From NCBI GenBank assembly GCA_900299145.1, contig OMIN01000072.1, forward strand, positions 1 through 54,135: a stretch of 54,135 nucleotides of DNA, given 5' to 3'. A program made the position numbers and the translations under genes. This stretch comes from Betaproteobacteria bacterium (GTDB lineage: Bacteria; Pseudomonadota; Gammaproteobacteria; Burkholderiales; SG8-41). Shown piece after piece: positions 2,151 through 42,290 of the stretch. How positions within the stretch are numbered: position 1 is the stretch's first letter; the number at the start of each line of letters is the position of its first letter. The notes below the pieces were generated by a model. The model worked only from the letters and a program-made list of their open reading frames with translations. It searched no databases and had not been told where the DNA came from.

Positions 2151-2178
2151 ATTAACTATCTGTTTTTAAAGGAATTTT
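2151..2178 (-). repeat. Dispersed AT-rich motif, degenerate copy
   Basis: On the minus strand this gap contains AAAAACAGATAGTTA, matching the right half of the dispersed motif (compare 32881-32908). The left half is poorly conserved, about 18 of 28 positions overall. It lies between the Bug gene stop and the ATG at 2183. Confidence 0.5.
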
Positions 2179-2182
2179 AATC

Positions 2183-3202
2183 ATGGCGCTCGGGCCACAC
2201 AAAATCGAATACGAAGTGATCAAGGGCTGGGAGCAAATGCCCGAAGGGTATGCGTTCGTCGAGGTTGCGGGTGTCGCATGCGACTCCAAAGACCGCGTGT
2301 ATGTGTTCTGCCGCGGCAAGCATCCGATCATTGTGTTCGACAAAGAGGGCAAATTTTTGAACGCGTGGGGCGAAGGCCAATTCGTCGGCCCGCACGGCAT
2401 ATTCATCGACCGCGAAGACAACCTGTGGCTCGCCGATGACAAAAACCACGTCGTGCACAAGTACACCACCGACGGCAAAAAGCTGATGACGCTGGGCGAG
2501 CCGGGAAAGGCCGCCGACACCGGTTACAAGATTGGTGTGAGTCCGGTGCTGCGTGCGGCGGGGCCGTTTCACCGCGTCACCAATGTGGCGGTGTTGCCTG
2601 ACGGCGACATGTACATCGCCGACGGTTACGGCAACGCGCGCGTTCACAAGTATTCGAAGGACGGAAAGCTGTTGTTCTCGTGGGGCGAGCCGGGCAGCGG
2701 GCCGGGGCAATTCATGCTGCCGCATGGCATTGCCGTCGACAGCGCGGGCCTTGTCTACGTGGCCGACCGCGAGAACTCGCGCGTGCAGGTGTTCAAGGGC
2801 AATGGTGAATACGTGCGCGAGTGGGGCTGGTTGAACCGCCCGTACGACATTTTCATCGACGATCAGGACATGCTGCATATCGCCGAGGGCGGCTTTCACA
2901 ACTACATGATGAAACGCAGCGAAGGCCCGTTGCCCGCGCACGACCAGACCATGATTTACCCGCCGTGCGGCCACTCGCCGATTGCGCGCGTCACCGTGTG
3001 TGACCCCGACGGCAAGATCGCCGCGCAGGTTGGCGGCGAAAACCCCGTGCTGCCCGGCAACTTCGTCGCACCCCACGGCATCTGGGCCGACAAGCGCGGT
3101 GATTTTTATGTGGGCGAAGTCATCGTCAATGCGGGTGCGGTCAAGCGCATGGCGCCGCTGCGGCCAGCCGGGTTTCAGAAGTTCCGGCGGCGCGCGGGGT
3201 AG
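2183..3202 (+). CDS. NHL-repeat beta-propeller protein
   Basis: A 339-residue protein built of NHL-type repeats, the six-bladed propeller fold also found in peptidyl-alpha-hydroxyglycine alpha-amidating lyases. Repeated blade signatures are visible: FVGPHGIFIDREDNLWLAD, VTNVAVLPDGDMYIADGYGN, FMLPHGIAVDSAGLVYVADR and FVAPHGIWADKRGDFYVGE. There is no convincing signal peptide, so it may be cytoplasmic. The start ATG follows AAAGGAATTTTAATC, a good ribosome site. Relatives are common near Bug receptors in Burkholderiales. The enzymatic or binding role cannot be read from sequence. Confidence 0.82.
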   Translation: MALGPHKIEYEVIKGWEQMPEGYAFVEVAGVACDSKDRVYVFCRGKHPIIVFDKEGKFLNAWGEGQFVGPHGIFIDREDNLWLADDKNHVVHKYTTDGKKLMTLGEPGKAADTGYKIGVSPVLRAAGPFHRVTNVAVLPDGDMYIADGYGNARVHKYSKDGKLLFSWGEPGSGPGQFMLPHGIAVDSAGLVYVADRENSRVQVFKGNGEYVREWGWLNRPYDIFIDDQDMLHIAEGGFHNYMMKRSEGPLPAHDQTMIYPPCGHSPIARVTVCDPDGKIAAQVGGENPVLPGNFVAPHGIWADKRGDFYVGEVIVNAGAVKRMAPLRPAGFQKFRRRAG

Positions 3203-3255
3203 ATTTTTCCAATCAGTCCAACGCGGCACGATGTGAGCAAGGTGCCCTGCCAAAC

Positions 3256-3285
3256 CTGTCGTTCCCGCGTAGGCGGGAACCCATA
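3256..3285 (+). repeat. REP-like palindrome, left arm of GIY-YIG frame
   Basis: A short palindrome with arms TTCCCGC and GCGGGAA within a 30-bp unit. Its reverse complement matches 3591-3620 at 28 of 30 positions, so the two copies form an inverted frame around the GIY-YIG gene. A related pair sits at 25996-26076. Confidence 0.85.
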
Positions 3286-3290
3286 ACACA

Positions 3291-3584
3291 GTGACGAAGA
3301 GTAGTTACGTATACATGCTCGCAAGCGGTCGCTATGGCGCGATCTACACCGGTGTAACTTCTGACCTGATCAAACGCACTTGGGAACACAAGGAAGGCTT
3401 CATCAAAGGATTCACCAACGAATACGACATAAAGTACTTGGTTTGGTACGAAGCGCACGAAGACATCCACTCCGCCATCACCCGTGAAAAGCAAATCAAG
3501 AAATGGAACCGAGCGTGGAAAATCCGATTGATACAAGCGAAGAATCCTCTGTGGCGGGATTTGTATGTTGAAGTGGTAGGGTAA
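3291..3584 (+). CDS. GIY-YIG endonuclease domain protein
   Basis: A 97-residue single-domain GIY-YIG protein of the small UPF0213-like type. The hallmark elements are YVYML (residues 6-10), AIYTGVTSDL (17-26), Arg29 in the DLIKR helix, and Glu66 in TREKQIKKW, the expected metal ligand. The start is GTG at 3291, six bases beyond the left palindrome, and the stop lies six bases before the right palindrome, so the gene almost fills the space between inverted REP-like repeats. GIY-YIG domains cut DNA. That this one acts on the flanking palindromes, as a mobility or maintenance nuclease, is inference from the arrangement. Confidence 0.88.
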   Translation: MTKSSYVYMLASGRYGAIYTGVTSDLIKRTWEHKEGFIKGFTNEYDIKYLVWYEAHEDIHSAITREKQIKKWNRAWKIRLIQAKNPLWRDLYVEVVG

Positions 3585-3590
3585 GGGGTT

Positions 3591-3620
3591 TATGGGTTCC
3601 CGCCTGCGCGGGAACGACGG
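3591..3620 (-). repeat. REP-like palindrome, right arm of GIY-YIG frame
   Basis: Inverted copy of 3256-3285 (28 of 30 identical), beginning six bases after the GIY-YIG stop codon. The inner arms GGGTTCCCGC and GCGGGAACGAC can fold as a hairpin. Confidence 0.85.
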
Positions 3621-3667
3621 TAGGGATAATTTCGACACTTTGAAACAAAACTATTTGGGAGATCAAG

Positions 3668-4588
3668 ATGGGCAACAGCGTACAGGACAAAGTCGTCGTA
3701 GTAACCGGCGCGGGCGGTGGCATCGGCCGTGAAATGGCCTTGGCAATGGCCGCCAACGGCGCAAAAGTCGTGGTCAACGACATCGGGGCAGCCCTTTCAG
3801 GCGCGGCAGATGCCGCCATGGAAGGCGCCGCACAAAAAGTGGTGAACGAAATCAAGGCCGCGGGCGGCACGGCGGTGGCCAACACCGATTCGGTTTCCAC
3901 CTGGGCCTCGGCCGAACACATCATCCAGTGCGCGCTCGACACCTACGGCCGCATCGACGGCGTGGTCAACAACGCCGGCATTCTGCGCGACCGCATTTTT
4001 CACAAAATGTCGGAAGACGACTGGAACTCGGTCATCGCGGTGCATTTGAATGGTGCGTTTTACATGAGCCGCGCCGCCGCCAACCCCATGCGCGCGCAGA
4101 ACAGCGGCGCGTTCGTGCACATGACTTCCACGTCCGGCCTGATCGGCAACTTCGGTCAGGCAAACTACAGCGCGGCCAAGCTCGGCATCGCGGCATTGTC
4201 GAAAAGCATCGCCCTCGACATGGGCCGCAACCGCGTGCGCAGCAACTGCATCGCGCCGTTCGCGTGGAGCCGCATGACCAGCTCCATCCCCACCAACACG
4301 CCAGAAGAAAAAGAACGCGCCGGCCAACTGCAAAAAATGGAAGCGCGCAAAGTCGCACCCATGGCGGTTTACCTGATCAGCGACGCGGCCGCCGCCGTCA
4401 CCGGCCAGATTTTTGGCGTGCGCGCCAACGAAATCATGCTCTTCAGCCAGCCGCGCCCGATCCGCAGCGTGCACCACACACCGGAGTGGACGCCCGAGGC
4501 CATCGCCAAAGTGGCAATGCCGTCGATGGAAAAACAGTTCTATCCGCTGGACCGGTCGCCGGATGTGGTTTGTTGGGATCCGATTTGA
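3668..4588 (+). CDS. Short-chain dehydrogenase/reductase
   Basis: A 306-residue classical SDR, an NAD(P)-dependent oxidoreductase with a Rossmann fold. It has the cofactor loop TGAGGGIG (residues 14-21), NNAG near 101, a catalytic Ser in the MTSTSG segment and the YSAAK active-site tetrad piece near 168-172. The extended C-terminal part and the GILRDR segment after NNAG recall the dehydrogenase domain of peroxisomal multifunctional enzyme type 2 and bacterial 3-hydroxyacyl-CoA dehydrogenase relatives. A GGGAG ribosome site lies before the ATG. It stands alone between the GIY-YIG gene and the Xre/ImmA pair, so its substrate is unknown. Confidence 0.85.
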   Translation: MGNSVQDKVVVVTGAGGGIGREMALAMAANGAKVVVNDIGAALSGAADAAMEGAAQKVVNEIKAAGGTAVANTDSVSTWASAEHIIQCALDTYGRIDGVVNNAGILRDRIFHKMSEDDWNSVIAVHLNGAFYMSRAAANPMRAQNSGAFVHMTSTSGLIGNFGQANYSAAKLGIAALSKSIALDMGRNRVRSNCIAPFAWSRMTSSIPTNTPEEKERAGQLQKMEARKVAPMAVYLISDAAAAVTGQIFGVRANEIMLFSQPRPIRSVHHTPEWTPEAIAKVAMPSMEKQFYPLDRSPDVVCWDPI

Positions 4589-4616
4589 AATAATCCAATA
4601 AAGTCATATGCTTACA
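4588..4616 (+). repeat. Dispersed AT-rich motif
   Basis: Begins with AAATAATC, as other copies do, and ends with GCTTACA. It matches the consensus at most positions with one inserted base. It starts on the last base of the SDR stop codon and precedes the Xre gene. Confidence 0.65.
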
Positions 4617-4717
4617 ATTATTTTTCCGGATTGGTTAAATAATTTACCATTTGTGTATAATTGAATTGTAGCGGTGTTGGCGAACGCGAACCGCAAACAG
4701 AATCCAAAGGCATCTGC

Positions 4718-5095
4718 ATGATCACCACGAAACTAACGCCATTTGGGAAGCAAGTAAGACATTACAGAATTGAAGCCGATACGACGCTCGGGGAGATGGC
4801 TAGCACACTAGGGATTTCCTCCTCGTACCTGTCGTCGCTTGAAGTAGGTAGAAAGCCACTTAGCGACCTAACGGTGAGATCGATCGTCGACTACTTTCGA
4901 AAGAAGGGGATTAATGCTGACGATTTAGTTTCACTAGCCGACCGTACGCGTGCCGCCATCAAAGTAGATTCACTTGATGATCGCTCGCGCGAAATGGTTG
5001 CGACATTCGCTCGTCGCGTGCCCACGCTCTCACCCGAGCAGAGAAATTTATTGAACAACGAGCTAGAAAGGTTCTTTAACAAAGGGGAAAAGTAG
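4718..5095 (+). CDS. Xre-family helix-turn-helix regulator
   Basis: A 125-residue protein with an N-terminal helix-turn-helix of the Xre/Cro type: TLGEMASTLGISSSYLSSLE (residues 23-42) contains the recognition helix. The C-terminal half is acidic and basic without a named domain. ATG at 4718 is preferred over a TTG at 4661 because the HTH proteins normally start close to this point. The stop codon abuts the ATG of the ImmA/IrrE peptidase gene, so the two form a pair. Both genes are richer in A+T than their neighbours, a sign of acquisition. Confidence 0.87.
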   Translation: MITTKLTPFGKQVRHYRIEADTTLGEMASTLGISSSYLSSLEVGRKPLSDLTVRSIVDYFRKKGINADDLVSLADRTRAAIKVDSLDDRSREMVATFARRVPTLSPEQRNLLNNELERFFNKGEK

Positions 5096-5662: not shown

Positions 5663-5759
5663 GTGACTTACTATGATTTGTTTTTTGAAACCCTAAAGTA
5701 ATATTGAAGTTTTGCTACGCATGTAACATAGGTGAGTACACATCCGTCTAAATGTGCTC

Positions 5760-6836: not shown

Positions 6837-6871
6837 ACCGGCCACACGCTTTGGGTTGGGTCAGCGCTGCG

Positions 6872-14963: not shown

Positions 14964-14991
14964 TTTAAATATCTGATTTTATTGATTATTT
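14964..14991 (-). repeat. Dispersed AT-rich motif
   Basis: The minus strand reads AAATAATCAATAAAATCAGA then TATTTAAA, matching 24 of 28 positions of the copy at 32881. It lies just upstream of the Pho box array. Confidence 0.7.
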
Positions 14992-15177
14992 TTGTTTGTG
15001 ACGGCCCGCTCTTGGCAATCAGTCGCGCGCGTACTGCGGGTTTGTTGCGGGCAGTTGCTTTTGCCGCCAGCAACGCCGCCATAGTTGCCATCGCGGTACA
15101 CACGGGCGCGGCAAGCCGCCGGACCAGCGGCGCCGATCACAAAATATGCATAAAATCAGCTGCTTACGATATATCCA
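14992..15177. other. Remainder of the gap upstream of pstS
   Basis: Between the pst regulatory region and the next gene I see no coding sequence. The stretch holds the second, weaker copy of the AT-rich motif (15142-15169) and otherwise featureless GC-rich DNA. Confidence 0.4.
15142..15169 (+). repeat. Dispersed AT-rich motif, degenerate copy
   Basis: AAATATGCATAAAATCAG followed by CTGCTTACG aligns with the motif if one base is deleted. It is only 150 bases from the copy at 14964-14991 and lies in opposite orientation to it. Confidence 0.45.
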
Positions 15178-17133: not shown

Positions 17134-18078
17134 GTGAGCCAGAACCCGACTCCACAAGCCACCGCAGCCAGCATCCGCGCCAACATTGAGCGTGTGATGT
17201 CGGGCCAGACGCACACAGTCGACAAGGTGCTGGCGGCGTTTCTCGCCGGCGGGCATGTGTTGCTGGAGGACAACCCCGGCACCGGCAAGACCACGCTCGC
17301 CAAGGCGCTGGCAAAGAGCGTTGGCGGTGAATTTCGCCGTGTGCAGTTCACGCCCGATTTGCTGCCGTCGGATATTCTCGGCGTGTCGGTGTTCAATCCG
17401 CGCGATCAGGACTTCAAGTTTCACGCCGGACCGATTTTCACGCAGGTCCTGCTGGCCGACGAAATCAACCGCGCCAGTCCGCGCACGCAGTCAGCGCTGC
17501 TCGAGGCGATGGCCGAGGGGCAGGTCAGCATCGAGGGCAAAACGCACGCGTTGGACTATCTTTTCTTCGTCATTGCTACGCAGAACCCGGTGGAGTTTCG
17601 CGGCACCTATCCGCTGCCCGAAGCGCAGATGGATCGCTTCGCGGTACGGCTTTCGCTGGGTTATGTGAGCGCCGAGGCCGAGGTGGCCATCGTTAATGCG
17701 CAAGCGCAGGCGCATCCCCTCGACGGCCTACAGGCTTGCGTGACGACGCAGCAAATTCGTGAATTAAAACAACAGGTTAAAGCCATCCGCGTCAGCGACG
17801 AACTGAAGCGCTACGCGGTTGATCTGGCGCGTGCCACGCGCGGTGCGCCGTCGGTGCAACTGGGCGCCGGGCCGCGTGCGTCACTTGCGCTGGTGCACAT
17901 GGCACAGGCGCTGGCGCTGGTGCAAGGCGGTGAGTTCGTCACACCCGATCACATCCGCGACATGGCGGTAAGCGTGCTTGCGCACCGGCTGTCGATCGAT
18001 CCGGCGGCGAAGTTTTCCGGGCGCACGGCGCAGGACGTGGTGGCGGATGTTTTGAAAAGCGTGCCGGCGCCGGTCTGA
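17134..18078 (+). CDS. MoxR-family AAA+ ATPase
   Basis: A 314-residue MoxR ATPase. It has Walker A DNPGTGKTTLAKAL, Walker B LLADEINRASPRTQSALLEAM, sensor 1 ATQNPVEFRGTYPLPEAQMDRF and the C-terminal lid domain. GTG at 17134 follows AAGGACAA. MoxR proteins act as chaperone-like ATPases for partner complexes. The next two genes (DUF58 and a membrane transglutaminase) are its standard partners and are probably cotranscribed. The segment ELKQQVKAI is encoded by an AT-rich patch faintly like the dispersed motif. Confidence 0.92.
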   Translation: MSQNPTPQATAASIRANIERVMSGQTHTVDKVLAAFLAGGHVLLEDNPGTGKTTLAKALAKSVGGEFRRVQFTPDLLPSDILGVSVFNPRDQDFKFHAGPIFTQVLLADEINRASPRTQSALLEAMAEGQVSIEGKTHALDYLFFVIATQNPVEFRGTYPLPEAQMDRFAVRLSLGYVSAEAEVAIVNAQAQAHPLDGLQACVTTQQIRELKQQVKAIRVSDELKRYAVDLARATRGAPSVQLGAGPRASLALVHMAQALALVQGGEFVTPDHIRDMAVSVLAHRLSIDPAAKFSGRTAQDVVADVLKSVPAPV

Positions 18079-18108: not shown

Positions 18109-19428
18109 ATGTGGAAATTCTTTCACTGGCTGTTCAGCAAAATCGCCGCCGGCCAGCGCGTGATTGACCGGCGCTTTACCCCAGCGGGCATGCTGGTGGG
18201 CGGCATGCTAATCGCCGGAGCAACACTGGGCGCGGATACCAATCAGACCATGGCGTACCGCATTTCCGCGTTCGCCGTGGCGCTGCTATTGGTGGCTGCT
18301 GCCGGCGCGTGGCTGCAACGCGGGCGTTACACGGTAACGCGCCAGTTGCCACGCGCGGTATCGGCGGGTGAGGCGTTTCACTATCGTGTAACCGTGGGCA
18401 ATCTGGAAAACGCGGCGCGCGATGGCCTTGCGCTGATTGATGAGCTGGCCGATCCGCGCCCGCCGCTGGCGGAGTTTCGCGCGCGCTACAAGGTGCCCAC
18501 GTATCGCGCATGGAAGCAAATGATCCGCAACAAAAATGCTTGCGAAATCAAAGAGATGGCAATTCCCGAAATCGCGCCACGCAGCTCGGTGGAAGTCACC
18601 GTGGCAGGCTTCGCGCAGCATCGCGGCAACCAGCATTTTCGCGGGGCGGTGGTGGCGCGCGCCGATCCATTGGGCCTGGTGCGCGGCCTCACGCTACACG
18701 AAGCGCCCGGCAATCTGCTGGTGCTACCCAAACGCTACACCCTGCCGCCGATCAATCTGCCCGGCTCGCGCCGTCATCAGCCCGGCGGCGTCACGCTTGC
18801 CACTGGCGTCGGCGATTCAGAGGAATTTGTCGGCCTGCGCGATTACCGGCCCGGCGATCCGCTGCAACGCATCCACTGGAAAAGTTACGCACGCGTCGGC
18901 GAGCCGGTGGTGCGTGAATATCAGGACGAATATTTTGAGCGCCACGCGCTGATTCTCGACACCTTCGGCAACATCACGCGCGCGGGGTCGATTGCGCAGG
19001 CTGCTTCCACAACCGCAGCGTTTGAAGAGGCGGTGTCGGTGGCCGCCTCGCTCGCCTACACGGTGAACACTCAGGAATGTCTGCTCGACTTGATGTTCGT
19101 CGGCAATGAGTCGTATTGCTATACCGCCGGACGAGGCCAACTGTCGTCGGGCAGTTTGATGGAAGTGCTGGCAGGCGTGCAGCTGTGCGCGAGCCAGCCG
19201 TTCAAGACGCTGCACGACGCGGTGATCGCGCGGCGCGCGCTGCTGACAGGCAGCATCTGCGTACTACTGGCGTGGGACGAAGCGCGGCAGGACTTCATCC
19301 GCGACTTGCAGAAATTCGGCGTACCGTTGCTGGTGTTGCTGGTGGCAAATGAAGCACCGCCGGATCGGCCGCCATGGTTGCGGGTGATCGAGCCGGGGAA
19401 GGTGGCGGAAGGGTTGGCCGGGTTATGA
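18109..19428 (+). CDS. DUF58 domain protein
   Basis: A 439-residue membrane-anchored protein. Two N-terminal hydrophobic segments (TPAGMLVGGMLIAGATLGA and AFAVALLLVAAAGAWL) are followed by a beta-rich region. The DUF58 signature lies near residues 240-270: GVGDSEEFVGLRDYRPGDPLQRIHWKS is a von Willebrand A-related region (cited in parts as EFVGLRDYRPGD and IHWKSYAR). It lies between moxR and the transglutaminase gene and overlaps the latter by 4 bp (ATGA). Such trios are linked to envelope functions, but the molecular role is not settled. Confidence 0.88.
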   Translation: MWKFFHWLFSKIAAGQRVIDRRFTPAGMLVGGMLIAGATLGADTNQTMAYRISAFAVALLLVAAAGAWLQRGRYTVTRQLPRAVSAGEAFHYRVTVGNLENAARDGLALIDELADPRPPLAEFRARYKVPTYRAWKQMIRNKNACEIKEMAIPEIAPRSSVEVTVAGFAQHRGNQHFRGAVVARADPLGLVRGLTLHEAPGNLLVLPKRYTLPPINLPGSRRHQPGGVTLATGVGDSEEFVGLRDYRPGDPLQRIHWKSYARVGEPVVREYQDEYFERHALILDTFGNITRAGSIAQAASTTAAFEEAVSVAASLAYTVNTQECLLDLMFVGNESYCYTAGRGQLSSGSLMEVLAGVQLCASQPFKTLHDAVIARRALLTGSICVLLAWDEARQDFIRDLQKFGVPLLVLLVANEAPPDRPPWLRVIEPGKVAEGLAGL

Positions 19429-21434
19429 ACCACACCTCCAGCGTCATGAAAATCCACCCTCTGATGCTCGCCGCTGCCATCGCCTTCTGGGGCTGGCAAA
19501 GCGGCCAATGGCTGGCTGCGGCAGTCGCCGCACCGCTGTTGTGTGCTTCGTTTTACGTGTCGTTGCATTGGGAACAAACCACCGCGACGCTGTGCCGTGT
19601 GGCGGATTTTTGTGGTGTGTTCGCATTGCTGCTGGGCGTTTATTTTTACGTGGTGAACGGCAATCCGCAGGCGATAATCCTGTTTTTTCTGTGGCTGCCA
19701 ATGCTGTTTTTGCCGCTGGCGCTGACGCACGCCTACAGTGCCAGCGAGCGCATGGACGCGAGCGTGCTGTTCTGGAGTTTACGGCGCGATCCGCTGGCAA
19801 GGCCGGCGACGTTTGATCCCTGGTTTGCGTATTACGCCGTGTGGCTGTTTTCGGCCTCTGCCGCCAACAACCGCAGCGAGTGGTTCTACGTCGGGCTGGT
19901 GGCGCTGGTCAGCTGGCCGTTGGTGCGCATCCGCCCGTGGTCGTATCGCGTCGGCACTTGGGGCGTGGCGTTTTCGCTGGCGATAGGCATGGGCTACGGC
20001 CTGCATCTGGGGCTCGCCGAAACGCAGCGCTGGCTGGAAACCGCCGTGCCGGAATGGATATCGGGCGACGGCTCGCGCACCGACCCCTATCGCGCCACCA
20101 CCGACATCGGCCACATCGGCAAGCTGAAGGATTCCGACGCCATTGTGCTGCGGGTATTTCCGGCGGCGGGAGCCAAGCCGCCAGCGCTGCTGCATCGCGC
20201 GAGTTACAACACATATTTCGGTAATGCCTGGATCGCGCGCGGCGTGGCGTTCGCCAACGTGAACGGCGAGACCGGCGATATCTGGCCGCTGAACAAGGCC
20301 GACGCCGCGGGAGCCAGCATGCGCGTGACCCTCCATGATTACACCGTGCGGCCTAACCCGGTACTGAGTCTGCCCACGGGCGCGGTGGCGGTGGAAGCAT
20401 TGAAGGCGGTAAACATGCAGCGCAATCCGCTGGGCGCAGTGCAGATCGTGCGCGAGCCGGGGTTTTTTTCCTACACCGTTGCCTATAACAGCGGGCGCGC
20501 GGTGGAAGGGCTGCCCAACGAGGACGACACGCGCCTGCCACCGAAAGAACGCGAGGCCTTTGCCGCGCTGGCGGCGGAACTCGGCCTCAAGCAACTCAAG
20601 CCTGACGAAGCGGCGCTTACCGTCAAACAATATTTTGCACTGGGCTACCGCTATTCAACGTATCAGAAGGACACACCGCTGGTGGGCTCGGCCATCGTGG
20701 ATTTTCTGCTTCGCTCGAAATCGGGCCACTGCGAATACTTCGCCACCGCGACGGCGTTATTGCTGCGCGCGGGTGGCATCCCCGCGCGTTACGCCACCGG
20801 CTTCGGCGTGCTCGAGAAAAGCGATCTCGAAAACGGCTGGCTCGTGCGCACGCGCCACGCGCACGCGTGGGTGCGCGCTTACGTCAACGGCGCGTGGATC
20901 GACATCGACACTACGCCACCGGCGTGGGGCGACGTCGAAGCGGACGCGGGCAGCGGCTGGGCAAAATCGTGGTCAAAGGTTACCGACGTATGGTCGTGGC
21001 TGCGCTTTCGCATTTCACAAGCATGGGCCAACAGCGATGAACGCAAACTGCTGATCGGCGGCTTGATTGTGGTACTGCCATTTGCGCTGTGGCTGGCGTG
21101 GCGCTTATTCCGCAGCCGGCGCGTTGCAAAAAATAATCAAATAAAACAAATACTTACAGACAACAGCCACACAGGCGCCGATTCCGAGTTTTACCGCGTT
21201 GAGCAGCGGCTTGCGCAAGCCGGCCTGCGCCGCCAGCCGCACGAAACCGCGCGTGCGTGGCTGGCGCGGCTGGAGCAGGATGCAAACGTGGATACGTCAC
21301 CATTGCTGGAAATCGTCACGCTGCATAACCGCTATCGCTTTGATCCCGGCGGATTGCCGGCGGAGTTGCGCACGCAATTGCGTGAGCGCGTGCAGCAATG
21401 GTTGGCCGCGCAGCCGGCGGCACAAAAATCGTAG
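19425..21434 (+). CDS. TgpA-like membrane transglutaminase (DUF3488/DUF4129)
   Basis: A 669-residue protein with about six N-terminal membrane segments (DUF3488 region), a periplasmic transglutaminase-like domain and a C-terminal membrane segment plus DUF4129 tail. The catalytic Cys is in SGHCEYFATATALLLR, the His in TRHAHAWVRAYV and the Asp in WIDIDTTPPA, so the triad is intact. Pseudomonas TgpA is essential and acts in the periplasm. The linker after the last membrane helix (KNNQIKQILTDN) is encoded by a near-perfect copy of the dispersed AT-rich motif. ATG at 19425 overlaps the DUF58 stop. Confidence 0.9.
   Translation: MNHTSSVMKIHPLMLAAAIAFWGWQSGQWLAAAVAAPLLCASFYVSLHWEQTTATLCRVADFCGVFALLLGVYFYVVNGNPQAIILFFLWLPMLFLPLALTHAYSASERMDASVLFWSLRRDPLARPATFDPWFAYYAVWLFSASAANNRSEWFYVGLVALVSWPLVRIRPWSYRVGTWGVAFSLAIGMGYGLHLGLAETQRWLETAVPEWISGDGSRTDPYRATTDIGHIGKLKDSDAIVLRVFPAAGAKPPALLHRASYNTYFGNAWIARGVAFANVNGETGDIWPLNKADAAGASMRVTLHDYTVRPNPVLSLPTGAVAVEALKAVNMQRNPLGAVQIVREPGFFSYTVAYNSGRAVEGLPNEDDTRLPPKEREAFAALAAELGLKQLKPDEAALTVKQYFALGYRYSTYQKDTPLVGSAIVDFLLRSKSGHCEYFATATALLLRAGGIPARYATGFGVLEKSDLENGWLVRTRHAHAWVRAYVNGAWIDIDTTPPAWGDVEADAGSGWAKSWSKVTDVWSWLRFRISQAWANSDERKLLIGGLIVVLPFALWLAWRLFRSRRVAKNNQIKQILTDNSHTGADSEFYRVEQRLAQAGLRRQPHETARAWLARLEQDANVDTSPLLEIVTLHNRYRFDPGGLPAELRTQLRERVQQWLAAQPAAQKS
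21131..21158 (+). repeat. Dispersed AT-rich motif inside transglutaminase gene
   Basis: 27 of 28 positions match the consensus. It is read in the frame AAA-TAA shifted so that it encodes NNQIKQILT in the cytoplasmic linker. It stands out as an AT-only patch in a GC-rich gene. Confidence 0.85.
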
Positions 21435-25995: not shown

Positions 25996-26076
25996 TGTCA
26001 TTCCCGCGAAAGCGGGAATCCATGAGTCGCGCCAGATGGCACAGTGTTATGGATTCCCGCTTTCACGGGAATGACA
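25996..26076. repeat. Inverted pair of REP-like palindromes
   Basis: Two copies (25996-26023 and 26049-26076) of a 28-bp unit with arms TTCCCGC and GCGGGAAT face each other across 25 bases. Reverse complement identity is 27 of 28. The unit is the same family as the palindromes framing the GIY-YIG gene at 3.3 kb, but here no gene lies between. It sits between lgt and ilvD. Confidence 0.85.
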
Positions 26077-26118: not shown

Positions 26119-27801
26119 ATGCCCGCCAAACCCTTAAACAAGCGCAGCCAACTCATCACCGCCGGAGTCGCGCGCTCGCCCAACCGCGCGATGCTGCGAG
26201 CCGTCGGCTTTGGCGATAAGGATTTTGTGAAGCCCATCGTGGGCGTCGCCAACGGGCATTCGACGATGAACCCGTGCAACGCGGGCATTCAACCGCTGGT
26301 GGATCGCGCCATCGATGCGTTGAAAAAGGCCGGCGCGATGCCGCAGGTGTTCGGTGTACCGACGATTACCGACGGCATCGGCATGGGCACTGAGGCCATG
26401 AAATATTCGCTGGTGTCGCGCGAAGTGATTGCCGATTGCATCGAAACGGCGGTAAACGGGCAAGCGATGGACGGCGTGCTGGTGTGCGGCGGATGCGACA
26501 AGAACATGCCCGGCGGCATGATCGCCATGCTGCGCATGAACGTGCCGGCCGTTTACGTTTACGCCGGCACCATCAAACCCGGCAAATGGAAGGGTATTGA
26601 TCTCACCATCGTCAGCTCGTTTGAAGCCGTCGGTTCGTACGCCGCCGGTAAAATGAGCAAGGAAGATTTCATCGGCATTGAAAAAAATGCCTGTCCCTCG
26701 GTGGGTGCATGCGGCGGCATGTACACCGCCAATACCATGTCTAGCTCGTTCGAGGCACTGGGCATGAGCGTGCTGGGTTCGTCACAAATGGCTTCGCCCG
26801 ATCCGGAGAAGGCTGATTCTGCCGCGGATTCCGCGCGCGTGCTGGTCAATGCCATCAAGAAGGACATCAAGCCGCGCGATATTGTCACGCGCAAATCCAT
26901 CGAAAACGCGGTGGCGCTGATCATGGCGACTGGCGGCTCGACCAACGCCGTGCTGCATTACCTCGCCATCGCGCACGCTGCCGAAGTGAAATGGACCATC
27001 GATGACTTTGAACGCATGCGTAAAACAGTGCCGGTGCTGTGCGATCTGAAGCCCTCCGGGCGCTATGTCGCGGTGGATTTCCATCGTGCGGGCGGCGTGC
27101 CGCAAGTGTTGAAGATACTGTTGAAGCACGGCCTGCTGCATGGTGATTGCATGACCATCACCGGCGAGACCATGGCGCAAGCGCTGGCGAAAGTGCCCGA
27201 TGCGCCGCGCAAAAATCAGGATGTCATTCGCCAATGGGACAACCCGATGTACAAGCAGGGCCATCTGGCGATTCTGAAGGGCAATCTCGCGCCCGAGGGT
27301 TGTGTGGCAAAAATCACCGGTTTGAAATCACCGAAGATCACCGGCCCGGCGCGCGTTTTCAACAGCGAGCGCGAGACCATGGACGCCATCATGGCGAAAA
27401 AGATCAAACACGGCGACGTGGTGGTGATCCGTTACGAAGGCCCGAAGGGCGGCCCCGGCATGCAGGAAATGCTCGCCCCCACCGGTGCGTTGATTGGGCA
27501 GGGCCTGGGCGAGACTGTGGGGCTGATTACCGACGGGCGCTTCTCCGGCGGCACCTGGGGCATGGTGGTCGGCCACGTCGCACCGGAAGCCTACGTCGGC
27601 GGCCCCATTGCGCTGGTGAAGGAAGGCGATTCGATTACCATCGATGCCACTAAGCTATTGATTCAATTGAATATTTCTGCCGCCGAAATGAGCAAGCGCA
27701 AGAAGGCGTGGAAGCAACCCAAGCCCAAGTACACGCGCGGCGCGCTGGCGAAGTTCATGAAGACCGTTTCGACGGCAAGCAAGGGGGCGGTGACGGACTA
27801 G
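26119..27801 (+). CDS. ilvD: Dihydroxy-acid dehydratase
   Basis: A 560-residue iron-sulfur dehydratase that converts 2,3-dihydroxy-3-methylvalerate or -isovalerate to the 2-oxo acids of isoleucine and valine synthesis. Cluster cysteines are visible in [10 protein letters not shown] and in [16 protein letters not shown]. The C-terminal segments [11 protein letters not shown] and GHVAPEA are typical. ATG at 26119 follows CCGGAG. A Bug receptor gene starts 4 bases after its stop. The codons for KLLIQLNI near the end hold a degenerate AT-rich motif. Confidence 0.95.
27651..27677 (-). repeat. Dispersed AT-rich motif inside ilvD, degenerate
   Basis: The minus strand reads AAATATTCAATTGAATCAA then TAGCTTA, about 22 of 27 positions matching with one gap. 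The encoded KLLIQLNI fits the family alignment, so this copy is less certain than those in livG and waaC. Confidence 0.45.
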
Positions 27802-29210: not shown

Positions 29211-31247
29211 ATGCCCAACCGCTTAACGCTAGAGACCAGTCCCTACCTCCAGCAACACGCCGGCAACCCCGTCGATTGGTACCCATGGGGCGAGGAGGCG
29301 TTGAAACTCGCACGCGAGCAGGACAAGCCAATACTGTTGTCGGTTGGCTACTCGGCTTGCCACTGGTGCCACGTGATGGCGCACGAATCGTTCGAGGATG
29401 CCGCCGTGGCCGCCGAGATGAACCGGCTTTACGTCAACATCAAGGTGGACCGCGAGGAGCGGCCCGACATCGATCAGATTTACCAGACTGCGCATCACAT
29501 GCTCACGCGCCGTAACGGCGGCTGGCCGCTGACGATGTTTTTGATGCCGGATGGCACGCCGTTTTTTGGCGGCACGTATTTTCCGAAGGCGCCACGCTAC
29601 AACATGCCAGGGTTTTTGGATTTGCTGCCGCGCATTGCGCAGGCGTATCACGCGCAGCGCACGGAAATTAACAAACAAAATCAATCACTTATTGCTGCGC
29701 TTGCGGACACGGCCCCAAAGGTGGCCGAAGCTGGCGCGTTTTCACGTGCGGTACTCGACAAAGCCCTCGCCGAATACGCGCAGGTGTTTGACCGCGAACA
29801 CGGCGGCATTGGTCACGCACCGAAGTTTCCGCATCCGTATGAGCTGGCGTTTTGTTTGCGCCGGCATTCGTTGGACGCTGACCCAACAGGCCTCGACATT
29901 GCGCATGTCACGCTCACGCACATGGCTGAGGGCGGCATTTACGATCATCTGGGTGGCGGCTTTGCGCGCTACAGTGTGGATGAAACGTGGACGATTCCGC
30001 ATTTCGAGAAAATGCTCTACGACAACGGGCCATTGCTGGCGCTCTACAGCGACGCGTGGCTGGTCACGCAATCGCCGCGCTATAAAGCTGTTTGCGCGGA
30101 GACGGCGACTTGGGTGATGCGCGAGATGCAATCGCCGGTTCACGCCAATGAGGGAGGATACTTCTCCTCGTTCGATGCCGATTCGGAGCACGTCGAAGGC
30201 AGGTTTTATGTGTGGACACCGGAGGAAGTGAAAGCGTTGCTTACGCCGGAGGAATACGCAGTGCTGGCGCCGCACTACGGGTTGGCTGCCGCGCCGAATT
30301 TCGAGAATGAACATTGGCACCTGCGCGTCAACCAGCCGTTGCCGCCGGGCGGTGATGCCATACTTGCCCCGGCACGTGCGAAACTTCTGGCTCATCGCAA
30401 CCAACGTGTGTGGCCTGGCCGCGACGACAAAATCCTCACCAGCTGGAACGCGCTGATGATCAAGGGCATGGCGCGCGCGGCTCGGGTGTTCGATGGACCG
30501 GCGTGGCTTGCTTCCGCGCAAAACGCGCTGGATTTTATCCGCTGTACGCTGTGGCGCGATCAGCGCCTGCTGGCCACCTATAAAGACGGCAAGGCGCATC
30601 TCAATGCCTATCTCGATGACTACGCGTTTTTGCTGGATGCGCTGCTGGAGTTGATGCAGACCGAATTCCGCGCGGACGATCTCGCGTTCGCGCAGGCGCT
30701 GGCCGAGCGGCTGCTCGATCAGTTTGAAGATAAGGCGGATCACCACGGCGGCGGGTTTTTCTTCACCAGCCACGATCACGAAAAACTGATTCATCGCAAC
30801 AAGCCCGGCTTCGACAACGCCACACCGTCGGGTAACGGCATCGCCGCATTTGCGCTGCAACGGCTGGGGCACTTGATTGGCGAGCCGCGCTATCTCGACG
30901 CGGCGGAGCGCGCGATACGCCTTTTTTACGGCGCGATGCAGCGCCAGCCCAGTGCCTTTGTCAGCCTGCTCACGGCCATGGAAGAAGCGCTGACGCCGCC
31001 GCGCATCGTCTTCCTGCGCGGCGAAGCCGCCGCAACCCGGCAGTGGCAGCGCGCGCTGCAAGCGCGTTACCGGCCCGATACGCTGGTGCTGGCACTGCCT
31101 GCCGATTTGCAAGGATTACCGCCTGCGCTCGACAAACCTTTGCCGTCTGAAAACGCCGCCGTCAACGCGTACGTTTGCCAAGGCGTTAGTTGCTTGCCGC
31201 CTCAGTCAGATTTGGGCACAATCGAGCGCCTGCTGGCTGAGGCTTAG
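29211..31247 (+). CDS. YyaL-like thioredoxin-fold/DUF255 protein
   Basis: A 678-residue protein of the YyaL/SSP411 family: an N-terminal thioredoxin-like domain (about residues 1-165) with Cys50-His-Trp-Cys53 in [10 protein letters not shown], then an alpha/alpha toroid related to N-acylglucosamine epimerase and cellobiose epimerase folds, with the segments [23 protein letters not shown] and [12 protein letters not shown]. Length is normal. The family is widespread but has no settled reaction. The codons around INKQNQSLI carry a degenerate AT-rich motif. Confidence 0.9.
29665..29693 (+). repeat. Dispersed AT-rich motif inside yyaL-like gene, degenerate
   Basis: AAATTAACAAAC followed by AAAATCAATCACTTATT aligns with the motif with several substitutions. 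It encodes [10 protein letters not shown], an AT-rich patch in a GC-rich gene. Confidence 0.4.
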
Positions 31248-31249: not shown

Positions 31250-31277
31250 AAATTATCAATTAAATCAAATACTTACA
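31250..31277 (+). repeat. Dispersed AT-rich motif
   Basis: 26 of 28 positions match the consensus, with the end TCAAATACTTACA. It fills the gap between the yyaL-like stop and the ribosome site (AGGAAA) of the cytochrome gene. Confidence 0.8.
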
Positions 31278-31286: not shown

Positions 31287-31607
31287 ATGAAACTCGCCAT
31301 CGCGGCCAGCGCCGCAACTCTGGGTTTGCTGCTTGCCGGCGGCGCTGACCGTGCGCAGGCCGACGAAAAACTCGCGCAAGCCAACGGCTGCATGACCTGC
31401 CATCAGATCGATAAAAAGGTGCTGGGCCCCGGCTTCAAGGACGTCGCCGCAAAATACAGAGGCGACAAAGCCGCCGAAGCTAATCTGATCAAGAAAGTGA
31501 AGGAAGGCGGCAAAGGCGCCTGGGGCGACATGATGATGCCGCCCAACGCACATGTGAAAGACCCCGACATCGCCACGCTGGTGAAGTGGATTCTGGCGCA
31601 GAAGTAA
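31287..31607 (+). CDS. Class I cytochrome c (c551/c8-like)
   Basis: A 106-residue periplasmic monoheme cytochrome. The signal peptide ends near ADRAQA. The heme motif is Cys35-Met-Thr-Cys38-His39 and the axial Met is among Met82-84 in DMMMPPNA. The short VKWILAQK end matches c551-type electron carriers. It is followed by a clear intrinsic terminator. It would shuttle electrons to a periplasmic reductase or oxidase not in this window. Confidence 0.92.
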   Translation: MKLAIAASAATLGLLLAGGADRAQADEKLAQANGCMTCHQIDKKVLGPGFKDVAAKYRGDKAAEANLIKKVKEGGKGAWGDMMMPPNAHVKDPDIATLVKWILAQK

Positions 31608-32880: not shown

Positions 32881-32908
32881 AAATAATCAATTAAAACAGA
32901 TAGTTATA
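32881..32908 (+). repeat. Dispersed AT-rich motif
   Basis: 25 of 28 positions match: AAATAATCAATTAAAACAGA then TAGTTATA. It lies between the Bug gene stop and the CmcJ-like start, both on the minus strand. Confidence 0.8.
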
Positions 32909-34049: not shown

Positions 34050-34077
34050 CATAACTATCTGATTTAATATGCTATTT
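34050..34077 (-). repeat. Dispersed AT-rich motif
   Basis: The minus strand ends TTAAATCAGATAGTTAT, and 22 of 28 positions match the copy at 32881. It lies in the divergent gap between the Bug and dehydrogenase genes. Confidence 0.65.
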
Positions 34078-37483: not shown

Positions 37484-38565
37484 GATTTGATCTGGAGCAT
37501 TGGGGCAAGTTTTTGCTGCTGGCTATTGCGCTGGTGGCGTTGCCCTTTTTGATCGACGCCGCCCTCGGCCGCGCGTGGGTGCGCATTATCGATATTGCAC
37601 TGCTGTTTGTAATGCTGGCGCTGGGGCTGAATATTGTGGTGGGCTTCGCGGGCCTGCTGGATCTCGGGTACATCGCTTTTTTTGCCGTGGGTGCGTATAG
37701 CTATGCGTTGCTGGCCTCGCCGCACTTTGGCGTCCATTGGCCGTTTCTGGCGTTATTGCCAATCGGGGCGATGTTCGCGGCGGTGTTTGGCGTGTTGCTC
37801 GGTGCGCCGACATTGAAACTGCGTGGGGATTATCTGGCAATCGTCACGTTGGGGTTCGGCGAGATCATCCGCATATTCATGAACAACCTTAACCGGCCTG
37901 TCAACATTACCAACGGGCCGCAAGGCATTACGCTGATCGATCCGCTGCAGGTGGCAGGCTTTTCGCTGTCGAAAACCTACATGCTGGGTGGTTTGACGCT
38001 AGCCCCGGTACACCTCTATTACTTCGTGTTTCTGGCATGTGCGCTGCTGACGATTTTCATTTCGCTGCGGCTGGAAAATTCACGCATCGGCCGCGCGTGG
38101 GTGGCAATCCGTGAAGACGAGCTCGCCGCCAGCGCGATGGGCATCAACACGCGCAATGTCAAACTGCTGGCGTTTGCAATGGGCGCGACCTTCGGCGGCG
38201 TGGCGGGTGGCCTCTTCGCGTCGTTTCAGGGCTTTATCAGCCCGGAAAGTTTTGCGCTGCTCGATTCGATCATGGTGCTGGCAATGGTGGTGCTCGGCGG
38301 CATCGGCAATGTCGGCGGCGTGGTGTTGGGCGCGATTTTGCTCACGGCATTGCCGGAAGCGCTGCGCTACCTCGGCCCGATGCAGGAGCAGTGGCTGGGG
38401 CGCGTGGTGGTGGATCCTTCCGGTTTGCGCATGCTGATGTTCGGGCTGGCGCTGGTACTGATAATGCTGTTTCGCCCGGCCGGCTTGTGGCCCTCCAAAA
38501 CGCGGCAGCGCGAACTGGCCGGGCTGACTGTGCAGCCCGCTGCCTCCGGGAAGCACGATGGCTGA
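37477..38565 (+). CDS. livM: Branched-chain amino acid ABC permease LivM
   Basis: A 362-residue permease with the LivM blocks GLNIVVGFAGLLDLGYIAFFA, RGDYLAIVTLGFGEIIR and the loop RAWVAIREDELAASAMGIN. The start is GTG at 37477 within a triple GTGAGGC repeat. The stop overlaps livG by 8 bases. Confidence 0.93.
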   Translation: MRRFDLEHWGKFLLLAIALVALPFLIDAALGRAWVRIIDIALLFVMLALGLNIVVGFAGLLDLGYIAFFAVGAYSYALLASPHFGVHWPFLALLPIGAMFAAVFGVLLGAPTLKLRGDYLAIVTLGFGEIIRIFMNNLNRPVNITNGPQGITLIDPLQVAGFSLSKTYMLGGLTLAPVHLYYFVFLACALLTIFISLRLENSRIGRAWVAIREDELAASAMGINTRNVKLLAFAMGATFGGVAGGLFASFQGFISPESFALLDSIMVLAMVVLGGIGNVGGVVLGAILLTALPEALRYLGPMQEQWLGRVVVDPSGLRMLMFGLALVLIMLFRPAGLWPSKTRQRELAGLTVQPAASGKHDG

Positions 38566-39355
38566 GGCGCTGCTGGCCGTCAGCGGCATCACCAAACGTT
38601 TCGGCGGATTGACCGCGCTCGAAGATGTATCGCTCAGCGTGAGTCCCGGCGATATCTATGGCCTGATCGGCCCCAATGGCGCGGGCAAAACCACTTTGTT
38701 CAATATTCTGACCGGTGTCTATGCCTGCGATACCGGTAAAATATTATTTAAAAACAAATACTTACAAAACACCAAACCACATGAGGTGGCGAGCGCGGGT
38801 ATCGCGCGCACGTTCCAGAACATACGTCTCTTTGCCAACATGACGGCGCTGGAAAACGTGATGGTGGGGCGCCATGTGCGCACGCGCACGGGAGTCATCG
38901 GCGCGATATTGCGCAACCGCGTCACACGTAATGAAGAACGTGCGACCGAACAGCGGGCGCACGAGTTGCTCGACTACTGCGGCATCGCGCCCCACGCCAA
39001 TGCACTTGCACGCCATCTGGCGTACGGCGATCAGCGGCGGCTGGAGATCGCGCGCGCGCTCGCCACCGAGCCGTCGCTGCTGGCGCTGGATGAACCGGCC
39101 GCCGGGATGAACGCCACGGAGACCGGCGCACTGCGCGGCTTGCTTGAACGCATCCGTGCCGATGGCATCACGCTGCTCCTGATCGAGCATGACGTGAAGT
39201 TGGTGATGGGTTTGTGTGACCGCTTGGCAGTGCTCGATTACGGCAGGAAAATCGCGGAAGGCACGCCAGCTGAAGTGCAGCGCGATGCGCGCGTGATCGA
39301 GGCCTATCTGGGGACTGGTGCCACCGAGGCTGCTGAGGCTGCCGATGCTACTTGA
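38558..39355 (+). CDS. livG: Branched-chain amino acid ABC ATPase LivG
   Basis: A 265-residue ABC ATPase. It has Walker A GPNGAGKTTLFN, the RTFQNIRLF Q-loop, signature LAYGDQRRLEIARAL and Walker B LLALDEPAAGMN. From memory of E. coli LivG, the sequence is collinear from Walker A through the Q-loop, even though codons for ILFKNKYLQ lie in a copy of the dispersed AT-rich motif identical over 25 bases to one in waaC. Confidence 0.94.
   Translation: MAEALLAVSGITKRFGGLTALEDVSLSVSPGDIYGLIGPNGAGKTTLFNILTGVYACDTGKILFKNKYLQNTKPHEVASAGIARTFQNIRLFANMTALENVMVGRHVRTRTGVIGAILRNRVTRNEERATEQRAHELLDYCGIAPHANALARHLAYGDQRRLEIARALATEPSLLALDEPAAGMNATETGALRGLLERIRADGITLLLIEHDVKLVMGLCDRLAVLDYGRKIAEGTPAEVQRDARVIEAYLGTGATEAAEAADAT
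38739..38766 (+). repeat. Dispersed AT-rich motif inside livG
   Basis: AAATATTATTT joined to AAAAACAAATACTTACA. Bases 38740-38764 are identical to 41664-41688 in waaC. The reading frame is AAA-TAC-TTA-CAA, different from that of the copy in the transglutaminase gene. Confidence 0.9.
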
Positions 39356-40052: not shown

Positions 40053-40074
40053 TTGCCGCACCAAAAACTGGACA

Positions 40075-41322
40075 CTAAAAGTAGATCAAGTCCACCAGAC
40101 GCCGGGTAGCGCCCTGGTGTTCGCCGCTAAAGGCAAGCGCGGCGGCGCTCATGCGTTGCGTGACTTTGGGGTTGTCTAGTAACGCGGCGGCTTTACGCTG
40201 CAAATCCGGGCCGTCCGTCACGCGTAAGGCCGCGCCTGCGCCTACAGCGCCCTCGGTGGCCTGCGCAAAATTGTAGGTGTGCGGGCCGATCAGTACGGGT
40301 TTACCGAGCGCGCAGGCTTCGATCAGATTCTGTCCGCCAAACGGTAACAGGCTGCCGCCGATGAATGCGATGTCGCAGGCCGTGTAGTAAGCCGCCATCT
40401 CGCCCATGCTATCGCCAAGCAGCACTTGCGAATCGGCGCACACGGTTTCGCTGGCACTGCGGCGCTGATAGCGGATGTGATGCTGATCGAGCAGAGCCGC
40501 CACTTCGTCAAATCGCTGCGGGTGGCGCGGCCCGATGACCAGTAGCGTACCCGGCAGCTCATGTAACTTGTTGTTAATCAATAGTTTTTCTTCGCCATCC
40601 CGGGTGCTGGCGGCAAGCAGCACGCGGCGCGCGCCGAAACTCTCGCGCAGTTGTTCGCCCAACGCGCGCTGCGCGGCGGACGGCGCAACATCGAATTTCA
40701 GATTACCGGCTACCATGACGCTGGTTGCGCCCAGCGCTTCAAAGCGGCGCGCATCGTCACCACTTTGAGCGGCGATAGCGGATAACGCGCGCAACGTGGG
40801 CGTGGTGAGCGAGGCGAGACGCTGATAACCGGCGAAGGATTTTTCTGATAGACGCGCGTTGACAAGATACAGTGGGATGCCACGCGCCTTGCACGCGTGC
40901 ACCAGATTCGGCCAGATTTCGGTTTCCATCAACACGCCAGCACGCGGCTTGAAATGCGCGAGAAAACGCGTGACCGCGCCAGGGTAATCGTACGGCAAAT
41001 AGCAGCGCATGACACGCGGCGTGCCGGCGGGAAACAACGCATCGCCCGCCTCGCGCCCGGTGGGCGTCATGTGCGTGAGCAGAAGATGATGGTCCGGGTA
41101 GCGTTCAAGCAGCGCGCGCGCCAGCGGCTCAGCCGCCCGCGTTTCGCCCACGGAAACGGCATGCAGCCATAGCAGCGGCGCTGGTGGCGTTTGCTTTTGA
41201 TAAAAACCGAAGCGCTCGCTGACATGTTGCAGATAAGCCGGCTGGCGACGCGCGCGCCACCAAAGCCGCAGCACGATGAACGGCAGCGCCAGGGTGATCA
41301 GCAGACTGTAGAGGGTGCGCAC
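40075..41322 (-). CDS. waaA: Kdo transferase WaaA
   Basis: A 415-residue GT30 enzyme that adds Kdo from CMP-Kdo to lipid A precursor at the inner membrane. An N-terminal membrane anchor (LYSLLITLALPFIVLRLWW) is followed by WLHAVSVGETRAAEPL, MPTGREAGDALF, ETEIWPNLVHACKARGIPLYLVNARLSEKS and IGPRHPQRF. The codons for LLINNKLHE form an AT-rich patch that resembles the dispersed motif. It shares the strand with waaC, 11 bases upstream. Confidence 0.93.
   Translation of the reverse strand: MRTLYSLLITLALPFIVLRLWWRARRQPAYLQHVSERFGFYQKQTPPAPLLWLHAVSVGETRAAEPLARALLERYPDHHLLLTHMTPTGREAGDALFPAGTPRVMRCYLPYDYPGAVTRFLAHFKPRAGVLMETEIWPNLVHACKARGIPLYLVNARLSEKSFAGYQRLASLTTPTLRALSAIAAQSGDDARRFEALGATSVMVAGNLKFDVAPSAAQRALGEQLRESFGARRVLLAASTRDGEEKLLINNKLHELPGTLLVIGPRHPQRFDEVAALLDQHHIRYQRRSASETVCADSQVLLGDSMGEMAAYYTACDIAFIGGSLLPFGGQNLIEACALGKPVLIGPHTYNFAQATEGAVGAGAALRVTDGPDLQRKAAALLDNPKVTQRMSAAALAFSGEHQGATRRLVDLIYF
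40561..40590 (-). repeat. Dispersed AT-rich motif inside waaA, degenerate
   Basis: The minus strand reads AAAAACTATTGATTAACAAC then AAGTTACA, aligning with the livG copy with a one-base gap. The AT-rich patch encodes KLLINNKLH. Confidence 0.45.
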
Positions 41323-41333
41323 GGTAGTAGCGA

Positions 41334-42290
41334 TTACACGGGCATCAGCCGTTCAAGTGCGGCAATGACGTCTTGCACCGAAGGCGGCGCACCGATGCCA
41401 CCCAGATTGACCGCATGCGGCCCGGCGTGAATGCCGGTGGCCGCCGGATCGGTGGCGCCGTAAACGCCGACGGTCGGCACACCGAGCGCGGCGGCAAGAT
41501 GTGTGAGGCCGGTGTCCACGCCCACGACAGTATGCGCGCCAGCGATCAATCTGGCCGCGTCGTGCAGCGCCAAGGCTGGCGGAACAATCGCCTGTTGCAT
41601 CGCGGCCGCGAGGCGCTCGCTGCGGTCGCGCTCAACTGCGTTGCCCCATGGCAGCACACAAACAATATTATTTAAAAACAAATACTTAGATAGCTCCGCC
41701 CAAAGAGATTCCGACCACAATTTCGCGTCTGCGCTGGTCGCGTGCAAAAGCACCGCGTAGCGCCCGCCCGGTAGCCAGGGGAATCCTTTCGTAGGGCAGC
41801 CGATGCCGTAGTCAGCGGGGCTGATCACTGCGTATCCCAGCGCCTGCGCGGCCAGGCTACGGTTGCGGGTGACAGCGTGCTGTCCCCAAGGCACGGCGTA
41901 AGTGCGGTCGTAAAACAGCCTGAGCGGCTCTCGCGAGCTTTTCCAATCCAGGCCATGTTTAACACCGCGCGCGACACATGTGACCAGCGCACTTTTCAGC
42001 AACCCCTGGGTGTCGATGATGGCGTCGTACGCTTGGTGGCGAATGCGTTGCAGAAAGTTGCAGCATTCGCCGCGTGTCTGCCCGCTCAGCGGTGAGCGCC
42101 GCCAGCGGCGTATCGCCACGGGAATGACTTGCGCGACACCTGCGTGCAACTGCGGGATGGCGCTAAACGATTGTTCAACCACCCAGTCGATGCTTGCGCC
42201 GGGCATGTGCGCGAGGACATCGCTCACGACCGGCAAGTTGTGCACGACATCGCCCAGCGAAGAGGTCTTTACCAGAAGAATGCGCGCCAT
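41334..42290 (-). CDS. waaC: Lipopolysaccharide heptosyltransferase I
   Basis: A 318-residue GT9 enzyme that adds the first L-glycero-D-manno-heptose to Kdo. It has the start MARILLVKTSSLGDVVHNLP, the catalytic-site region IDTQGLLKSAL, the LPWGNAVERDRSE block and GVDTGLTHLAAALGVPTVGVYG. In E. coli WaaC the block between the W-rich motif and LPWG has the same length, so the AT-rich motif embedded there (encoding KYLFLNNIV) has not changed protein length. Confidence 0.92.
   Translation of the reverse strand: MARILLVKTSSLGDVVHNLPVVSDVLAHMPGASIDWVVEQSFSAIPQLHAGVAQVIPVAIRRWRRSPLSGQTRGECCNFLQRIRHQAYDAIIDTQGLLKSALVTCVARGVKHGLDWKSSREPLRLFYDRTYAVPWGQHAVTRNRSLAAQALGYAVISPADYGIGCPTKGFPWLPGGRYAVLLHATSADAKLWSESLWAELSKYLFLNNIVCVLPWGNAVERDRSERLAAAMQQAIVPPALALHDAARLIAGAHTVVGVDTGLTHLAAALGVPTVGVYGATDPAATGIHAGPHAVNLGGIGAPPSVQDVIAALERLMPV
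41663..41690 (+). repeat. Dispersed AT-rich motif inside waaC
   Basis: 26 of 28 positions match the livG copy, including 25 in a row. It lies on the strand opposite to waaC coding and encodes SKYLFLNNI in reverse complement. Confidence 0.9.

Follow-up and report, generated by a model that had tools for sequence, protein, structure and literature searches.

What is the role of a short AT-rich sequence that recurs every few kilobases, on both strands, in a GC-rich chromosome? The question is raised by a stretch of 54,135 nucleotides (the window: contig OMIN01000072.1 of assembly GCA_900299145.1, Betaproteobacteria bacterium), in which a dispersed 28-bp motif had been noticed in gaps and inside genes. 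The original prediction, made from the letters alone, proposed three readings: a protein-binding site that organises the chromosome, an uptake signal or a copying element. Our analysis supports the uptake signal best, leaves the organising site standing and contradicts the copying element. By analogy with known systems, the motif is probably a DNA uptake sequence, by which naturally transformable cells prefer DNA of their own kind and which is spread by biased transformation. We base this reading on the abundance of the motif, its occurrence in both orientations, its preference for sequence that is free to vary, its even spacing, its clade-specific dialects, its change by substitution and its loss together with transformation genes.

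Sequence and abundance of the motif

The genome carrying the window (hereafter G000) amounts to 5.51 Mb in 158 contigs. Starting from 21 close matches, a position matrix was refined with 454,135 bases from this genome, made of the window and 20 stretches of 20 kb, the sites located 20 bases or less from a stretch end being left uncounted. The resulting consensus of 28 nt is AAAWAWTCAATAAAAACARATASTTAYR. Its least variable positions are AAA at 13-15, CA at 17-18 and TTA at 24-26, and other positions are shared by two letters: A/T at 4, A/G at 19, C and G about equally at 23, and mostly C/T at 27. The flanks contain a few AT-rich bases and otherwise share little, being unrelated between copies.

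At a threshold of at least 18 bits, 131 sites were found in the 454 kb, corresponding to one site per 3.5 kb. The unmerged hits numbered 134, versus 0 in a shuffled control (one first-order draw) and 2 in a reversed control. Extrapolating from these figures, the whole genome would hold about 1,590 copies. The whole of G000 was also scanned with two patterns, tolerating at most 3 mismatches. The strict IUPAC pattern returned 228 matches (117 and 111 on the two strands) and none when written backwards; the degenerate pattern returned 956 matches and its reversed control none. A copy number of this kind, in the hundreds to thousands, on both strands and far over chance, is that of a sequence of the type of the DNA uptake sequences (DUS) of Neisseriaceae or the uptake signal sequences (USS) of Pasteurellaceae. 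The motif is unlikely to result from assembly or from adapters, since many independently deposited metagenome-assembled genomes (MAGs) contain exact matches to it.

Most of the original description is borne out by these calculations. Both strands are used, the matrix and pattern scans far exceed their controls, where a count no higher than expected for AT-rich words would have spoken against function, and the two variants described for the right part of the motif are true degeneracies of positions 19, 23 and 27. The nine copies given as good are all present, the first being best set at 4589 in the register of the matrix, and they score 29.8 to 48.6 bits. As for the degenerate copies, seven weaker matches reach at least 18 bits in the window, but the five weakest of them are doubtful because the reversed control itself has 2 hits at this threshold in 454 kb. 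All sixteen are given below, the nine good copies first and the seven weaker ones in order of score.

4589-4616, plus strand: motif copy, 29.8 bits, directly 3' of a stop codon
8081-8108, plus strand: motif copy, 48.6 bits, in a 63-bp gap with minus-strand genes on both sides (LMW-PTP-like and PhoR-like kinase)
14964-14991, minus strand: motif copy, 41.8 bits, intergenic
21131-21158, plus strand: motif copy, 44.8 bits, in frame in a transglutaminase-like gene (19425-21434), before the DUF4129 domain
31250-31277, plus strand: motif copy, 44.8 bits, in a 39-bp gap between gene 29211-31247 and the gene at 31287
32881-32908, plus strand: motif copy, 45.4 bits, intergenic; the congener G007 has one at the same place
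34050-34077, minus strand: motif copy, 34.0 bits, intergenic
38739-38766, plus strand: motif copy, 42.2 bits, in frame within livG (38558-39355)
41663-41690, plus strand: motif copy, 35.4 bits, within a minus-strand heptosyltransferase-like gene (41334-42290)
2151-2178, minus strand: weaker copy, 34.3 bits, intergenic
15141-15168, plus strand: weaker copy, 27.6 bits, intergenic
27649-27676, minus strand: weak match, 26.7 bits, within ilvD
29666-29693, plus strand: weak, doubtful match, 25.8 bits, within the thioredoxin-domain gene 29211-31247
17754-17781, plus strand: doubtful match, 22.7 bits, coding
45014-45041, plus strand: doubtful match, 21.1 bits
53331-53358, plus strand: doubtful match, 19.7 bits

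Letters like those of the match at 27649 recur in the ilvD gene of 9 congeners, and this match is probably a coincidence. The window also contains REP-like inverted repeats, GTCATTCCCGCG...GCGGGAAT, at 3258-3618 and 25996-26076, which are distinct from the motif. A palindrome of the repetitive extragenic (REP) or bacterial interspersed mosaic (BIME) kind was rejected: the motif consensus, read by eye, is not self-complementary, as had been claimed, and the REP-like repeats of the window lie elsewhere.

Distribution of the motif and of transformation genes

Matches to the degenerate pattern were counted in a family sample of 74 genomes, 39 of which belong to the four related genera g1, g6, g19 and g20 and 35 to the five sister genera g2, g3, g4, g5 and g21. 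In the first group 38 of the 39 genomes have 12 to 956 matches, the exception being G009 with 3, and in the second all 35 have only 0 to 3. In an order sample of 399 genomes, of which 387 are outside the family, the sole enriched outsider is G452, a member of another family with 180 matches; every other outsider has at most 5. In a class sample of 369 genomes, the 365 belonging to other orders have at most 2.

The dialects of the motif are restricted to subclades of the family, with the exception of the form found in G452, outside it. At its best-matching sites this form reads AAATATTCAATAAAATCAAATACTTAYA, with unrelated flanks in all 19 copies inspected by eye. Its own dialect matrix, built on 22 sites taken mostly from 19 loci chosen as the best pattern matches, found 2 sites of at least 14 bits in 120 kb of other DNA of G452, fewer than the 6 to 7 predicted by a density of 180 per 3.3 Mb. 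Among the five genomes of the same genus (g163), G461 has 11 matches and the three others none. The eleven weak copies of G461 (loci L293-L313), many of which have right ends like CAAATAATTACA or CAAATAGTTACA, may represent a further dialect or a set in the course of fading; no comEC was detected in this genome, which is 85% complete.

Exact matches to a 24-letter core were, among the matches listed, mostly in MAGs named Betaproteobacteria or Burkholderiales bacterium. Several of the motif-bearing MAGs listed were deposited as Bordetella parapertussis (for instance L069, L071 and L080), which is probably a misnaming, and the few single exact-core matches listed in unrelated bacteria look like chance. 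By its record names, the clade of the window is apparently uncultured and environmental. No exact match was found in viral contigs, a weak test since exact matches are a minority of the sites. Other dialects were looked for in motif-free genera: neither 100 kb of G072 nor 60 kb of G035 has a 10-mer that is strongly over-represented. Very frequent 10-mers were seen in G062 (TTTGCGTCCT), in G032, which is motif-bearing (TCCTCTGTGT), and in G081 (CGTTGTCGGT); they look like tandem or other repeats.

The ComEC (PF03772) and DprA (PF02481) families were each detected in 13 of the 14 genomes of the window's genus. The one genome missing both is G009, the only congener that is nearly motif-free. Its estimated completeness is 97%, at which the absence of both genes through gaps is unlikely; as the relatives include MAGs, absences of a single gene may be gaps. 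Family-wide, comEC was found in 68 and dprA in 70 of the 74 genomes; G009 and G060 alone lack both, the latter being motif-free with an estimated completeness of 86%. In the motif-bearing genera comEC is present in 37 and dprA in 38 of the 39 genomes, counting gene presence alone. Applied to 100 kb of G009, the matrix gave 20, 10, 5 and 2 hits at 8, 12, 16 and 20 bits, versus 19, 8, 2 and 0 in the reversed control, so that G009 retains at most a small remnant of the motif.

A tree of ilvD was calculated for 47 of the 74 genomes of the family; those left out include g6 (G018) and G008. The motif label changes twice along this tree, which we interpret as a single gain preceding g19, g20 and g1 and a single loss in G009. 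The latter is placed beside G013 within g1, in a group that includes 8 motif-bearing congeners (96/93), and has a branch of 0.52. G054, which also has a long branch (0.36), still carries 42 motif matches along with dprA and a partial match to comEC. A pairing of motif loss with missing transformation genes, as would be expected if the motif erodes once transformation is lost, is seen in one lineage, that of G009. This genome is the smallest of the 14 (4.0 Mb), has a GC content of 49% over 100 kb versus about 60% in G000 and has long branches for both ilvD and livG; it looks like a lineage undergoing genome reduction. It retains pilin-like genes, including a weak ComP_DUS match.

Individual sites, spacing and rival explanations

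Individual sites were followed across the 13 congeners in 20 kb of the window. The copy at 21131 is found at the same place and on the same strand in all 9 alignable species (8 of 8 congeners), with no gap within the motif; it sits in a variable protein stretch where two species have a one-codon gap nearby. Pairwise identity between species is 79% in the motif versus 67% and 57% in the adjoining 30 bases; the next 30 bases further left are 82% identical, as conserved as the motif. In G012 (L173 near 13609, minus strand), an in-frame TAA occurs within the orthologous copy in the transglutaminase-like gene; the protein of this species may have been truncated at its end by the motif, unless the assembly is in error at this point. 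At 31250, sites of 20 to 45 bits occupy the same place in 12 species, those of the 11 congeners ranging from 19.8 to 43.6 bits, again with no gap within the motif. The identity of the motif (69%) is here about that of its left flank (68%), so no extra constraint is shown at this site, and the graded strengths of the aligned copies suggest gain or decay through substitution.

The copy at 38739 lies in livG, where G000, G007 and G001 encode GKILFKNKYL or a near variant in frame. The other 9 congeners compared have an ordinary livG of identical length. Since the length is the same in 3 genes with and 9 without the motif, the latter replaces livG sequence and does not insert into it. When the motif columns are removed, a livG tree unites the three alleles bearing the motif (support 83/85), a grouping that does not separate descent from transfer.

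On the scale of the 454 kb, a simple codon-usage gene caller assigns 88% of the DNA to coding sequence, yet places 91 of the 131 sites in intergenic DNA. The spacing was analysed on 109 of the 118 sites of at least 24 bits, leaving out the lone 20-kb stretch of contig C121. The 104 intervals have a median of 3.4 kb and a coefficient of variation of 0.54; 3 are below 1 kb and 1 below 500 bp. This evenness was unmatched in 2000 draws for each of three null models, in which sites were placed uniformly, weighted towards intergenic DNA, or limited to one per gap. The spacing of 2-4 kb and the placement in both gaps and genes that had been read from the window are thus right for the larger sample.

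The main rival of an uptake sequence is a binding site for a clade-specific protein that organises the nucleoid or chromosome and needs a regular lattice, a reading that we regard as unlikely, though worth weighing. Even spacing, use of both strands, mostly intergenic placement, restriction to a clade and recurrence at the same place across species (at 21131 and 31250) are all consistent with it, and the loss of the motif in a small, fast-evolving genome fits it equally. The matS/MatP, SlmA and Noc systems are similarly made of dispersed specific sites with one protein reader. Sites of these systems number in the tens and are tied to parts of the chromosome, whereas some 1,590 sites are estimated here and the strand of the motif does not track GC skew in six groups of G000 stretches. 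A range of 67 to 956 matches among the congeners that keep the motif is odd for an essential lattice, the copies replace coding sequence, and the absence of the motif coincides with that of comEC and dprA. As for a known architectural protein, the IHF consensus is WATCAANNNNTTR; 15 of the 118 copies match it on either strand, and an IHF site was rejected.

We consider it very unlikely that the motif is a transcription signal, i.e. an operator, a promoter element or a terminator. Copies do often stand right after stop codons and in short gaps, but they show no orientation preference with respect to genes: between codirectional neighbours 27 of them point the same way and 30 the opposite way (among the 118 sites). 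Nineteen of the 118 lie deep within predicted genes, 11 on the same strand and 8 on the opposite one. Moreover, divergent gaps rarely hold a site. For gaps of at least 15 bp the proportions holding one are 20/49 (convergent), 55/210 (codirectional) and 5/54 (divergent), and for gaps of 60-150 bp they are 11/14 (convergent) and 0/20 (divergent). An RNA element was likewise rejected, an Rfam search of the window giving nothing at gathering score.

Least probable of all is a short mobile or self-copying element (an insertion sequence, a miniature inverted-repeat transposable element or MITE, a REP-like or a retro-copied sequence): the numerous dispersed similar copies and the patchy presence in one genome of another family (G452) recall such elements, but the possibility is contradicted by the equal length of the 12 livG sequences (one site, and the sole motif-free comparison) together with the unrelated flanks, and it is further opposed by the lack of gaps within the motif at 21131 and 31250 (9 and 12 species) and by two-letter degeneracy confined to particular columns, such as C/G at 23.

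Comparison with known uptake systems

The motif resembles the DUS of Neisseriaceae, whose receptor is ComP, in its many copies on both strands, in gaps and genes, and in its dialects following phylogeny; the genomes bearing it also have type IV pilin genes, comEC and dprA. It differs in its build, since DUS have at most about 13 nt with a CTG core, as described in a part of PMC12616744, whereas the motif has 28 nt and is AT-rich. Occurrences of the DUS core GCCGTCTGAA do not exceed chance, with 2 in 454 kb and 0-2 in shuffled sequence. According to the same part of PMC12616744, DUS and USS often form inverted-repeat terminators, unlike the present sites, with their single interval below 500 bp. 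The USS of Pasteurellaceae (predicted receptor ComN/PpdA) have, like the motif, a span of about 30 bp with AT-rich parts (same part of PMC12616744), and their spread is attributed to molecular drive in a section of PMC7811141. Their inner core is GCGG, in contrast with a motif that is AT-rich throughout apart from a single C/G position; the two USS cores are no commoner here than by chance. A known DUS or USS dialect was rejected: GTCTG or GCGG is found, on either strand, in 1 of the 118 copies, and the full cores remain at the level of shuffles in 454 kb.

The uptake reading would work as follows. The 28-bp AT-rich site would be bound by a receptor on the cell surface (a type IV minor pilin, by analogy); the pilus would draw the fragment in, and ComEC and DprA would hand the DNA to recombination. 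Alleles closer to the consensus would have a higher rate of uptake, and of copying into chromosomes, than others. The resulting molecular drive would strengthen sites where the sequence can vary, namely in gaps and protein linkers, and would space them evenly; once transformation is lost, the sites would fade. For known uptake sequences, molecular drive and an under-representation in coding DNA and constrained genes are described in the section of PMC7811141 mentioned above, and a significantly even spacing in a part of PMC1939737, which cites Karlin.

Several observations weigh against this interpretation. To begin with, the motif has neither DUS nor USS cores. Another passage of PMC1939737 argues that the evenness of known uptake sequences falls short of what compaction would require, and PMC7811141 describes USS as unevenly distributed along the H. 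influenzae chromosome; evenness is therefore not a reliable sign of an uptake sequence. The joint loss of the motif and the transformation genes is a single event, in a small, low-GC, fast-evolving genome where any unneeded motif would fade. G009 is, moreover, not fully empty of the motif (5 versus 2 reversed hits at 16 bits, 2 versus 0 at 20 bits), and the tree program flags the place of its long row as unsure, its letter make-up being different. Most motif-free genomes have competence genes as well, which therefore do not predict the motif: G462 and G463, in g163, have comEC and no motif, and some comEC-bearing species are poor in it (12 matches in G031, 67 in G004). Of the 74 genomes, 63 contain the ComP_DUS pilin family, members of motif-free genera and G009 among them. 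Finally, comparison of the minor pilin operon of G000 with 21 loci gave no pattern tracking the motif and no receptor, and this operon is very variable among motif-bearing congeners.

The minor pilin operon itself (L290, on contig C69 of G000; L324-L343 elsewhere) comprises PilE-, FimU-, PilV-, PilW- and PilX-like genes, named by resemblance. Its versions in congeners are 22% to 79% identical to that of G000, as if exchanged between species.

A part of PMC12616744 gives the discrimination of own DNA as known only in Neisseriaceae and Pasteurellaceae. We found no earlier report of such a signal in the present group in the open-licence literature, which does not prove that there is none. We tentatively raise the possibility, short of a probable one, that the motif belongs to a third, independently evolved system of self-DNA recognition, with a 28-bp AT-rich signal devoid of a GC core in apparently uncultured Burkholderiales, one dialect of which, in G452, would have crossed the family boundary as a shared uptake language. 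If the motif is an uptake sequence, it would provide a third case with a differently built signal, on which bias of the receptor alone could be tested versus exclusion of foreign DNA, and which receptors read uptake sequences would become testable as well. It would also imply that homologous recombination is frequent in this group.

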